This document shows positions 54,413-58,701 of a DNA stretch of 64,000 nucleotides, piece by piece. The notes beneath the pieces are model-generated. The model had not been told where the DNA came from. It searched no databases and was given only the letters and a program-made list of their open reading frames with translations. The position numbers and the translations under genes are program-made. This DNA comes from Pseudomonadota bacterium (lineage in GTDB: Bacteria > Pseudomonadota > Gammaproteobacteria > JAADHS01), in contig JAKACW010000014.1 of NCBI GenBank assembly GCA_021821045.1, forward strand, positions 1-64,000. Reading direction: 5' to 3'. Every line of letters starts with the position of its first letter. The first letter of the stretch is position 1.

Positions 54413-54505
54413 CGCCACTTCGGCAACGGGCCTGCGCAACAGTAGGTCAACGACGAAGCCATCAGGCCGGCGGCCGCGGGTCGCCCGCGAAACGTGGGCA
54501 CGACC

Positions 54506-56288
54506 ATGGTGATACATTCAATACACGGAGCGGCCGCAAGAAAGGGTGCCCGTTCTCTCGGAAGTGCAACTGCGATTTATGTCTGCCCCATGCACCCAGA
54601 GGTGCGGCAGAACGCCCCGGGAAACTGCCCAAAGTGCGGAATGGCGCTGGAGCCACGATCCGCCGCCGTCGAGGCCGAAGAGGAAAACGCCGAGCTGCGC
54701 GACATGAGTTTGCGGTTCTGGATCGGAACCGCCTTGGCTGGGCCGGTGTTTGTCATTTCGATGGTGCATGACTTGCTGCCGAGTGTCGCGGAGGCCATCG
54801 CGTCGCCGCGCATCTTGCAGTGGATTGGATTCGTCCTGGCGACCCCCGTCGTGTTTTGGGCGGGTTGGCCGTTCTTCGTGCGCGGTTGGGCGTCCGTGGT
54901 CAATCGAAGTCTCAATATGTTCAGCTTGATCGCGCTGGGCGTCGGGGTCGCATGGTTGTACAGTGTGGTCGCTCTTCTGCTTCCAGGTATTTTTCCCCCA
55001 TCCATGCGCGGCCACGCCGGCACCGTACACGTTTATTTCGAAGCGGCGGCGGTCATCACGGTGCTGGTGTTGCTGGGCCAGGTGCTCGAGTTAAAGGCAC
55101 GTAGCCGCACTAATGCCGCGATTAAACTATTGCTCGGCTTAGCGCCAAAAACGGCCCGCTTGGTCGAGGACGACGGTGCAGAACGGGACATCTCCCTCGA
55201 TCAGGTGCAGCCCGGCTATACATTGCGCGTCCGTCCGGGCGAGAAGGTGCCGGTGGATGGCGTTGTACTGGAGGGTAAGAGTGCCGTGGACGAATCCATG
55301 GTCACCGGCGAATCCATTCCGGTGGACAAACATCCGGGCGATCGCTTGATCGGCGCGACGGTCAACAGCACCGGTGCGATGTTGATGCGCGCCGAGAAGG
55401 TTGGCGCCGAAACGCTCTTGGCGCAAATCGTCAGGATGGTCGCCGACGCGCAGCGCTCTCGCGCGCCCATTCAAAAATTGGCCGATGTTGTCTCATCCTA
55501 TTTTGTTCCGGCCGTGGTCATTATCGCGGTACTGACTTTCGTTGTTTGGTGGGCCTGGGGTCCTGAGCCGCGTTTGGCACACGGCATCGTCAACGCCGTT
55601 GCAGTGTTGATCATCGCGTGTCCTTGCGCGTTAGGACTGGCGACGCCAATGTCCATCATGGTGGGCGCCGGTCGCGGCGCAACGGCGGGTGTTCTAGTCA
55701 AAAACGCCGAAGCGCTGGAGATCCTGGAGAAGATCGACACGATCGTCGTCGACGCCGGAAGCGATCAAAGCGCTGCACGACGAAGGCATCCAGGTGGTCA
55801 TGCTCACCGGCGACAATCGGGTAACCGCGTCCGCCGTGGCCAAGAAGCTGGGAATCGACAGCGTGGAAGCCGACGTTCTGCCGGAGCGCAAAGCGGAAAT
55901 TGTCAAACAACTCCAGGCCGACGGCCGCAAGGTCGCGATGGCCGGCGATGGGATCAACGACGCTCCGGCTCTTGCGCAAGCTCATGTTGGTATCGCCATG
56001 GGTACGGGAACGGACGTGGCCATGGAAAGCGCCGGGGTGACGCTGATAAAAGGCGGTCTGCGCGGAATTGTGCGGGCCCGCCGTTTGAGCCGCGCGACCA
56101 TGGGCAACATCCGTCAAAATCTGTTTTTTGCATTCATCTACAACTCGCTCGGTGTGCCCATCGCCGCCGGCGTGCTGTACCCCTTTTTCGGTCTGCTGCT
56201 CTCACCGATCATCGCGGCGGCGGCCATGAGTCTAAGTTCCGTGTCGGTTGTCGGCAACGCATTGCGCCTTCGGCGGGCTCAGTTGTAA
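54506..56288 (+). pseudogene. broken P1B-type copper ATPase (internal deletion plus frameshift)
   Basis: The 5' part has a heavy-metal-binding domain ([21 protein letters not shown]), membrane helices, the actuator TGES (VTGESIPV) and the metal-site CPC ([13 protein letters not shown]). The frame then reads EKIDTIVVD and leaves the family: the phosphorylation motif DKTGT and roughly the next 130-140 residues are missing. Homology resumes in the +1 frame as TPEAIKAL, then VVMLTGDN and [11 protein letters not shown], to the normal C-terminus. A 601-aa ORF in the track is a chance read-through. Loss of the phosphorylated Asp motif would abolish transport. An assembly error is the alternative. 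Confidence 0.85.
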
Positions 56289-56299
56289 GGACAGCTTGA

Positions 56300-56366
56300 A
56301 TCGCGGAATGATCCGCTCCCACAACTAGATGCACATCTTTCTGTGGGAGCGGTTTCCTACCGCGAT
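56300..56366 (+). repeat. REP doublet (A reverse, B forward), right copy of a near-identical pair
   Basis: It has the same structure and almost the same spacer (AACTAGATGCACATCTTTCT) as the doublet after copB. It starts 12 bases past the ATPase pseudogene and ends just before the stop of the protease-hydrolase fusion gene. Confidence 0.9.
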
Positions 56367-56377
56367 TCTTCTTGCGC

Positions 56378-58342
56378 TTACTTGCTGAGATTCCGCCGTT
56401 GCGAGCGCATGGACGACTTTCCGCGGGGGAAGCTCACTTCGGCTTTGGTCGTTGCCGTGCCCAGGATGCGAGCCAGCAATCCGACGACAGTGTGCGCATC
56501 GTCATCGAAGTCGCCATGATGGCGCGCGGTCGACGCATGTATCGAGCCCTTCGGTTCCTGGTTTGGCGCTTGTATCCATTCACGCTGATGTGCTTTCCAC
56601 AGTTTTTTCAAGTCCGGGTCGCGCTCGACGAATTTGGCCAGACCCAGGATCGGCTCGCCTTCGCGAAACAACGGTATGCGCGGCTTGTCCTCGAAAGCGT
56701 GGGACACGAGATACAGCAGCGACTTATGGTAGATATTGGCGCAGTGGTCTTCCTGTTCCGCCGTGTCGGTGAGCGTGTACAACGCGAATCGGTTGATCTG
56801 TCCTTGCTGAATGGCTGGCAAATAGCAGTCCTTGAACAAATCCACCGTGCAGGCCGGCGCCCACAAGGTCAGGGAGTCGATGGACAGCCCGTAGCCTTCT
56901 TTGTGGCGCAGCGGTCCGTGGTCGATCTGCCCTGATGTAGACAGTAATTGCACCAGCGGCGCGTGAAAAATGCTTCCCGCGCTGTGTCCCGCGATGTGCA
57001 GTTCGATCGACGGATCGTTCTCAATGAGCTTGGCAAGATTCTGCGCCACCAGCCGCGCGGCGCCGTGGCTCGAAGTGGTGGCGAGCAGCGCATTCTCTTT
57101 CATTTCTTTCCACTGCGCGCGACCCGTTAACGCGCGGGCGATGGGTTCGAGGGAGTCGTCGAGCCGATCGAGCAGAAAATCCTTGGCGTCGTCCAAGATG
57201 CCTTCGGGTTGGCGTTTGCGAATACCGTCTTGCAGGATGTTGGTCAGCGTCGTCCAGAAGTCGGTTTTCCAAACGAACGCGAGCGGGTAGATTTCGGCGT
57301 CGAGCAGGGGGTCGCGATAGTCCGCGACGCGATTGATGGCTTCGGTCTCGGAAACCAACCCGCCATGGGCGTACAGCAAGATGCGCTTCTTTTTCCAATC
57401 GGCGGTGATGCGCGGAAAGTCGTCCTCGAAAATGGCTTCGACATCGTCGGCCGTGGTGCCCAAGGGGCCGGAGTCGCGCAAGCGGCCGTCGTTGCCGACG
57501 CTGACAATGTGGGGGCGAAGATCGGCATGGGTGGGCCGGCCCGATTGGCGCAGGGCCAATGCGCGGCCCTTGCGGGCGACGGTTTTTTCGGCCAATCGAA
57601 TGGGCGCGCCAAGCCGGGCGACCCAGACGTCCGTGCCGTTTTCCAGCCAGTCTTCGTAGCCGATACGGGCGAAGCCCTGCTTGCCCCAGTCGGATCCCCA
57701 GGAGTTTTGAATCCACAGCCCATCCGCATCGTAGGCGACAATGGCGAAGGCGTGGCCGCCGAGGACTTCGCGGTCGTAACGAATCATCCCGTCACGGCGA
57801 ACATTGCTCCAGCCGCTGTGCACGATGGCGGTTGCGTACAGAACTCCGACTTCGGCGATGGCCGCATGCATCGCGACCAGATCCTTGTGGTTGACGCGGA
57901 AGTACGCGCCGAGCGGGCGTAGGCAGGCGTCGCCGGCGCGTTCGTCAGTGAGCCGGCGGCCCGTCTTGCCCTTGCCGTTGCGCCACAGGTCTTTCGAACA
58001 CACGCCGTGTTTATGCCAACCTTTCATGGCACCGCGGGCGCTCGATCCCTCGTATTCTTCTCCGGGCCACTCGTCGTAGCGTTTGGCCAACTGGTAGAGC
58101 ATGTAAGGTGACACCGCCGTCTCGTCAGGTTCGACGCCGCGGGTGCGCAAGAGATAGTTGCACACCGTCGCCAGCCCGAACCCGGTGCAAGCGCCTTCCG
58201 TGCCCTGGTCGAGGATGGGAACGCCCAAGGACTGATAGTCTTCCAATGCGACGCGCGGCGGGACTTCGACCAAGGTTGGAACGAACAGTCGGTCACGAAA
58301 ATCCACGGTGTCGGGACGCGCGTCCAGCGTGCGATTGGCCAT
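56378..58342 (-). CDS. papain-like protease fused to an alpha/beta hydrolase
   Basis: A 654-aa two-domain protein without a signal peptide. The N-terminal third is a C1-type cysteine protease: oxyanion Gln and nucleophile Cys in DQGTEGACTGFG (about residues 46 and 52), His in GGHAFAIVAYD (about 197) and Asn in IQNSWGSDWGKQGFA (about 213). The second half has an HGG oxyanion motif (YAHGGLVSE, about 326) and a serine nucleophile elbow AGHSAGS (about 454), as in lipases and esterases. GGAGGAG six bases before the ATG supports the start; the track's TTG is upstream. Its substrate and role are unknown. Confidence 0.85.
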   Translation of the reverse strand: MANRTLDARPDTVDFRDRLFVPTLVEVPPRVALEDYQSLGVPILDQGTEGACTGFGLATVCNYLLRTRGVEPDETAVSPYMLYQLAKRYDEWPGEEYEGSSARGAMKGWHKHGVCSKDLWRNGKGKTGRRLTDERAGDACLRPLGAYFRVNHKDLVAMHAAIAEVGVLYATAIVHSGWSNVRRDGMIRYDREVLGGHAFAIVAYDADGLWIQNSWGSDWGKQGFARIGYEDWLENGTDVWVARLGAPIRLAEKTVARKGRALALRQSGRPTHADLRPHIVSVGNDGRLRDSGPLGTTADDVEAIFEDDFPRITADWKKKRILLYAHGGLVSETEAINRVADYRDPLLDAEIYPLAFVWKTDFWTTLTNILQDGIRKRQPEGILDDAKDFLLDRLDDSLEPIARALTGRAQWKEMKENALLATTSSHGAARLVAQNLAKLIENDPSIELHIAGHSAGSIFHAPLVQLLSTSGQIDHGPLRHKEGYGLSIDSLTLWAPACTVDLFKDCYLPAIQQGQINRFALYTLTDTAEQEDHCANIYHKSLLYLVSHAFEDKPRIPLFREGEPILGLAKFVERDPDLKKLWKAHQREWIQAPNQEPKGSIHASTARHHGDFDDDAHTVVGLLARILGTATTKAEVSFPRGKSSMRSQRRNLSK

Positions 58343-58701
58343 AGCATGCTCCTCCAAATTCGTTTTGGCATTGGGTGATCGGGAGCAAGGCTTGGCGTCC
58401 CGCGCGTTGCGCTTCAGACGATTGCGACGATAAGTGTTTCCACCTATCTGCGAAAGACTATACGCCCGGCCGAATCGTTTTGAAAGGGCGGATGGGCCGG
58501 TGAGTTAATGGGCGGACTTGGCTGGCAGCGAACTGTTGTGGGAGCGGATCATTCCGCGATCGACTCGGCGAAGAATCGCGGTAGGAAACCGCTCCCACAG
58601 GATAGCGCTTCAGATGTTGTGGGAGCGGATCATTCCGCGATTAACTTGGCGCCCCATCGCAGTAGGAAACCGCTCCCACGGCGGGGCCGAATCGTTGGGC
58701 G
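58343..58701. other. 360-base intergenic region upstream of the fusion protease gene
   Basis: This gap between tpm and the protease-hydrolase gene contains the latter's ribosome-binding site, a two-doublet REP cluster (listed separately) and otherwise no credible ORF. I see no clear promoter on the minus strand. Confidence 0.6.
58538..58679 (+). repeat. REP cluster: two A-forward/B-reverse doublets
   Basis: Two consecutive doublets each consist of an A copy and an inverted B copy, the last B with one change (ATCGCAG). The inner spacers are short (14-15 bases), so each doublet would fold as a compact hairpin. Confidence 0.9.

Follow-up and report, generated by a model that had tools for sequence, protein, structure and literature searches.

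The locus raises the question of what a single polypeptide would do with a papain-like protease in its N-terminal half and a divergent hydrolase in its C-terminal half. The gene lies in a stretch of 64,000 nucleotides from a Pseudomonadota bacterium, referred to here as the window, and it was analyzed for the state of its two active sites, for its relatives in other genomes, and for the genes that surround it and them.

Two catalytic centres in one polypeptide

On the minus strand of the window, the open reading frame of the fusion is uninterrupted by stop codons. The features of the gene and of its flanks are as follows.

56378..58342, minus strand: papain-like protease / alpha/beta-hydrolase fusion gene, 654 residues, ATG at 58342
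57608..58315, minus strand: C1A papain domain of the xylellain type, residues 10-245 (Pfam, sequence and fold matches)
58187..58207, minus strand: Gln46 (oxyanion Gln) to Cys52 (catalytic Cys); C52 in 100% and Q46 in at least 97% of 65 relatives
57752..57754, minus strand: catalytic His197, 100% conserved in 65 relatives
57704..57706, minus strand: catalytic Asn213 (NSWG), 100% conserved in 65 relatives
57533..57595, minus strand: low-confidence linker between the domains, residues 250-270 (pLDDT 45-48)
56447..57520, minus strand: divergent alpha/beta-hydrolase domain, residues 275-632 (AlphaFold model, Foldseek)
57359..57367, minus strand: HGG motif, residues 326-328, presumed oxyanion hole; invariant in alignment A1
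57083..57250, minus strand: helical insertion, residues 365-420, possible lid; low confidence over residues 365-403
56975..56989, minus strand: GHSAG nucleophile elbow with Ser454, 100% conserved in 65 relatives
56765..56767, minus strand: Asp526, probable triad acid, at least 97% conserved; follows strand 516-524
56516..56518, minus strand: His609, probable triad base, at least 97% conserved in 65 relatives; invariant in alignment A1
56299..56371, no strand: REP-like palindromic element, downstream of the fusion gene
58534..58679, no strand: the same REP-like element in two direct copies, upstream of the fusion gene

The papain half opens with a conserved PDxxDxRD segment and carries its Gln/Cys/His/Asn set in papain order, namely Q46, C52, H197 and N213. 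It is matched above cut-off by Pfam Peptidase_C1 (E=3.7e-6), and its best solved relative is xylellain (PDB 3ois), both by sequence (E=1.5e-8) and by fold in Foldseek (E=1e-15). The two proteins are 24-25% identical, agree in the order of their catalytic residues and have similar PDxxDxRD segments at the N-terminus, but the xylellain chain, of 291 residues, covers just residues 10-242 of the window protein in the alignment and has no hydrolase domain. The papain half is predicted to be an intact and active C1A protease of the xylellain type.

For the hydrolase half, no Pfam family scores above its cut-off; Lipase_3 reaches 13.4 bits (E=0.074) against a cut-off of 22, and DUF900 reaches 11.9 bits (E=0.15) against 20.5. 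The AlphaFold model of this domain (pLDDT 82, pTM 0.84) is a confident alpha/beta sandwich outside the helical insert, with the HGG motif at the end of strand 320-326, S454 after strand 447-453, D526 after strand 516-524, and H609 last. Structure prediction, which the original prediction had proposed as a check, thus yielded the order of strands and catalytic residues expected for the hydrolase, with the papain fold nearest to 3ois. Serine hydrolases, cutinases and lipases head the list of Foldseek matches of the hydrolase domain in the PDB, but weakly, with a best E of 5e-3 and TM-scores of at most 0.36 of the query. Because these matches top the list and yet are weak, we regard the hydrolase half, on its modeled topology and motifs, as a remote branch of the serine alpha/beta-hydrolase superfamily. 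With the class 3 lipases, cutinases and PlaB it shares the strand order, the GxSxG elbow, the HGG motif and the positions of the Asp and His; it differs from them in its large helical insert and in belonging to a family of its own, and its Foldseek and HMM matches to them are weak, none reaching E<=0.001 by fold or by sequence.

Across 65 aligned relatives, C52, H197, N213, G327, S454, A455 and G456 are 100% conserved, and Q46, H326, G328, D526, E529, D532, H609 and D613 vary in no more than 3%. The expectation that one polypeptide holds two complete catalytic centres (Q46/C52/H197/N213 and HGG/S454/D526/H609) is therefore borne out, and since the catalytic residues are kept in the aligned relatives, both centres appear to be under selection in the main family. 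Among the distant relatives, all those that could be scored retain the papain set (L152, whose gene call is too short, was left out). Three distant members, L082, L085 and L164, have lost the catalytic residues of the hydrolase with the papain set intact; hydrolysis would thus not always be needed.

The 654-residue protein contains no hydrophobic stretch of transmembrane strength (the highest 19-residue Kyte-Doolittle mean, 1.75, falls inside the papain domain) and, by hydropathy, no signal peptide (best 12-residue mean near the N-terminus, 0.8), in agreement with the earlier claim that it has neither a signal peptide nor a membrane anchor. Nor does Pfam detect a peptidoglycan hydrolase domain in it. 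The gene is present in one copy in its own genome, and its GC and GC3 match the surroundings (GC3 is 0.756 for the gene and averages 0.741 over the window); its composition thus gives no sign of recent acquisition.

As originally described, the gene is solitary between REP elements, with REP-like copies on both sides and no conserved partner. The palindromes (TGTGGGAGCGG...CCGCTCCCACA) flank the gene asymmetrically, with a single inverted copy downstream and two copies in direct orientation upstream. From the window sequence, the neighboring genes read as CopA-like and TPMT-like, and no caspase, trypsin, YLATT or pYEATS gene is linked to the fusion gene there. The adjoining copper-type P-type ATPase gene (54494-56288, plus strand) looks broken: at the DKTGT region, near 55.7 kb, the reading frame stops following the ATPase sequence, which continues to its end in another frame from 55794. 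This gene is either a true pseudogene or an assembly error.

Distribution of the fusion and its added domains

The family was scanned in one genome per species, which gave 92 confirmed loci, of which 80 were kept. Full-length relatives, mostly 52-62% identical to the window protein, come from about ten phyla (Pseudomonadota, Planctomycetota (Brocadiaceae), Bacteroidota, Nitrospirota, Acidobacteriota, Chloroflexota, Thermodesulfobacteriota, Myxococcota, Verrucomicrobiota and Ignavibacteriota), several of the carrier genomes being metagenome bins. Carriers account for 8 of the 56 genomes in the relatives sample. With the hydrolase profile, which also counts distant and stand-alone forms, they account for 16 of 399 Pseudomonadota genomes (4%) and 4 of 297 Bacteroidota genomes. 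The combination of domains had been called unusual; as a singular find this does not hold, since scores of species share the fusion in conserved form. Common as the fusion is in the scan, however, nothing pointed to a known housekeeping role, so that the refuting condition originally set, a common fusion with such a role, does not apply; literature searches for a protease-hydrolase fusion and for pYEATS/YLATT returned nothing on the fusion protein.

In a quick tree, in which many inner branches are weak, the rows nearest to the window protein by path include Larkinella (Bacteroidota) and Brocadia. For this reason it is likely that the fusion has moved between phyla, apparently as a single gene. 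Plasmids bear further versions of it, mostly more distant. Phage matches, eight in number, are all to the papain half only, and IMG/VR yielded a single contig with a family member (L168), whose visible neighbor is not phage-like by eye; a phage origin of the core was rejected on these two grounds. As read from these sequences, the fusion gene is patchy, apparently mobile and conserved across phyla.

Many relatives have 870-950 residues, with 200-280 extra residues at the N-terminus, and the domains added there are nearly all of the phage-endolysin type, i.e., GH19, amidase_2 or muramidase. A peptidoglycan hydrolase domain is found in 24 of the 97 tree rows, the window copy and most others being without one. 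GH19 forms the N-terminus in 19 of these rows (Pfam E=2e-9); in one relative that was searched, the closest solved structure to the GH19 part is the PWe2 endolysin (E=4e-40), and phrog endolysins matched as well. Amidase_2 occupies this position in Hymenobacter and Duganella, with XlyA as the closest solved structure (E=2e-44). An endolysin-type muramidase is found in L144, a segment that resembles the peptidoglycan-binding portion of endolysins and precedes GH19 in L143, and a trypsin-like domain, as the N-terminal label, in L082. The label of the N-terminus changes seven times on the tree, and at least six of the changes are forced by well supported branches; at least three concern GH19 and two the amidase, and the changes may be losses as well as gains. 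The phage endolysins (PWe2 for GH19, XlyA for the amidase, and the muramidases) are thus homologous to the N-terminal domains of relatives, whereas the window protein has no such domain, and members of the family are almost never found in phage sequences. That the window protein lacks a signal peptide and a transmembrane segment is usual for phage endolysins too.

Other arrangements were also observed. Two genes encode an amidase, the hydrolase and a C-terminal caspase, in that order and without papain: L083:4203-7187, from a cyanobacterial plasmid of Kovacikia (domains by Pfam), and L151:6448-9075, from a Pseudomonadota genome, G193 (domains by sequence). There is, in addition, a separate class of stand-alone hydrolases of 480-540 residues. 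One such relative, of 537 residues, is encoded in Hymenobacter telluris (L044:944-2557) a few kilobases upstream of an amidase-papain-hydrolase gene. Similar stand-alone genes occur in L156 and L159, and the copy in L159 adjoins a caspase-like gene, recognized by eye and with no Pfam match.

Neighboring genes, secretion and defence

Among the 123 genes that immediately adjoin close-family members, no Pfam family appears at more than two loci, and a conserved operon partner was therefore rejected. No immunity gene recurs beside these members, VgrG or PAAR is not a recurrent neighbor of the fusion (in the window, the genes present are the CopA-like and TPMT-like ones), and defence families are not enriched around it. 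No PADLOC model matches the fusion protein; this, together with the lack of enrichment among neighbors, led us to reject membership in a known defence family.

The sheath gene of the type VI secretion system (T6SS; TssC/VipB, PF05943) was not found in the bacterium's own genome, of which about 1.5% is estimated to be missing, and it is absent from 23 of 30 carrier genomes. In the relatives sample, the sheath is present in none of the carriers and in 7 other genomes. A T6SS effector, as far as its own genome is concerned, is thus largely refuted, unless the missing portion encodes the system. The original list of possible roles, which named an effector, a toxin, a defence enzyme and a self-processing hydrolase, can be narrowed: a role at the envelope gains from the endolysin-domain fusions and the neighbors of relatives, delivery by a T6SS becomes unlikely here, and a known defence family drops out.

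Telling neighbors occur in a minority of relatives, mostly distant ones. An amidase gene lies upstream in L037 and L088, a patatin-like protein was recognized by eye next to L033 and L070, and a gene for a Tle1-like phospholipase follows L151. Caspase and YLATT contexts belong mainly to distant members: L066 and L068 have a caspase neighbor, L161 has a caspase, a YLATT gene and a trypsin, and L164 has a CHAP-type peptidase and a caspase, one on each side. In the Bacteroidota locus L155:3586-7075 (minus strand), a PLAT-domain protein, a membrane protein with pYEATS and an N-acetylmuramidase form an operon-like row with the look of an undescribed cassette for lysis or conflict. Two distant, plasmid-borne loci have a heme peroxidase nearby, L085:1415-5908 with an S8 peptidase and PAP2, and L088:4331-11661 with an amidase and a cytochrome P450; these peroxidases hint at a possible link to lipid oxidation.

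The Pfam names YLATT and pYEATS reportedly come from work by Burroughs and Aravind on predicted prokaryotic immune systems. In the passages of Kaur et al. 2020 (PMC7159879) that bear on this question, peptidase-centred conflict systems are described whose lysozyme-like and papain-like effectors target peptidoglycan; this is the nearest published principle that we found. Some distant relatives, i.e., those beside caspase, trypsin, YLATT or pYEATS genes, resemble such systems. The window gene, however, is without such partners, and those passages do not describe the fusion.

Possible roles of the fusion protein

Because relatives carry fusions with endolysin domains and have envelope-type neighbors, we infer that the family works on the bacterial envelope. 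Our preferred reading, held tentatively and at slightly less than an even chance, is that the window protein is a latent, stand-alone envelope-dismantling enzyme of the conflict or self-lysis type, made in the cytosol and with both activities predicted. The hydrolase would attack membrane lipids as a lipase or phospholipase, and the papain domain would cut proteins, either substrates or its own chain as a switch, while relatives with an added endolysin domain would attack the wall too. The family would then be a compact kit for lysis or cell dismantling, latent until triggered and released from inside, in regulated self-lysis or infection-triggered death. Release from inside is weakly favored over injection into competitors, because there is no signal peptide, no immunity gene and usually no T6SS, and because distant members have caspase and YLATT/pYEATS contexts; this is the weakest step of the reading. 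Several observations count against this reading: the window copy and most others have no fused wall hydrolase, close-family members share neither a recurrent neighbor nor an enriched defence family, PADLOC has no matching model, and three distant members do without the hydrolase residues. Since the window copy carries no wall hydrolase, it may act on membrane lipids and proteins alone.

The same features can be read differently. If the enzyme acted on other cells, which it would reach through lysis of the producer, vesicles or an unrecognized export route, the endolysin domains would breach the wall and the lipase and protease would follow. The endolysin fusions and phospholipase-type neighbor of relatives, the soil and water hosts (e.g., Lysobacter, Variovorax and Hymenobacter) and N-termini whose modularity resembles that of toxins all fit such an antibacterial enzyme, but we consider it unlikely, given the missing signal peptide, the lack of any recurrent immunity or secretion gene beside it, and the absence of a T6SS from most carriers. 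Delivery as a lipase-type orphan effector of a T6SS is far less probable still. Multi-domain effectors with lipase and wall-hydrolase parts are known for the T6SS, Tle phospholipase effectors presumably have serine lipase chemistry in common with the fusion, and the distant relative L151 is the one followed by the Tle1-like gene; against this stand the sheath counts given above, for its own genome, for the carriers and for the relatives sample, and the lack of an immunity gene or of a recurrent immunity-like neighbor.

A solitary gene of host-like GC among ordinary genes, with conserved active sites and a protease and a lipase that make a digestive combination, might instead serve in housekeeping or scavenging, i.e., in the turnover of protein and lipid within the cell or in necromass, with wall hydrolases added for the digestion of dead cells. 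We give this a minor share of the probability: the distribution is very patchy, with likely transfer across phyla, distant members lie in caspase, YLATT and pYEATS contexts, and a secreted digestive enzyme would need the signal peptide that is missing here. It is more doubtful that papain serves chiefly as a switch within the protein, cleaving the linker (residues 250-270) or the lid insert and so releasing or activating the hydrolase. Both segments are of low confidence in the model, a caspase replaces papain or a trypsin joins it in some relatives, and an activation mechanism is announced in the title of the xylellain structure paper (Leite et al. 2013, cited in PMC10380794). Yet papain is intact in members without the hydrolase residues, and there it would have a job of its own.

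Returning to the envelope-dismantling enzyme, a broader form of this proposal is that the family is an undescribed, widely transferred, single-gene self-lysis class, in which a latent protease and lipase have been joined in many lineages by a captured endolysin domain. Although we think this improbable as it stands, the polypeptide would in that case, on a trigger, dissolve the producing cell's membrane, wall and proteins, and the class would be a bacterial equivalent of lytic programmed cell death that needs neither a separate pore nor a partner gene.

Where it is annotated, the whole protein is called a 'C1 family peptidase', a name that gives no hint of the second enzyme. The C-terminal domain represents a conserved family of enzymes that has no entry in Pfam. 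The repeated joining of endolysin domains amounts to a natural experiment, in which lineages have put different wall hydrolases on the same core. Should the family prove to lyse cells, ten phyla would share a lysis device that consists of one gene and needs no partner.
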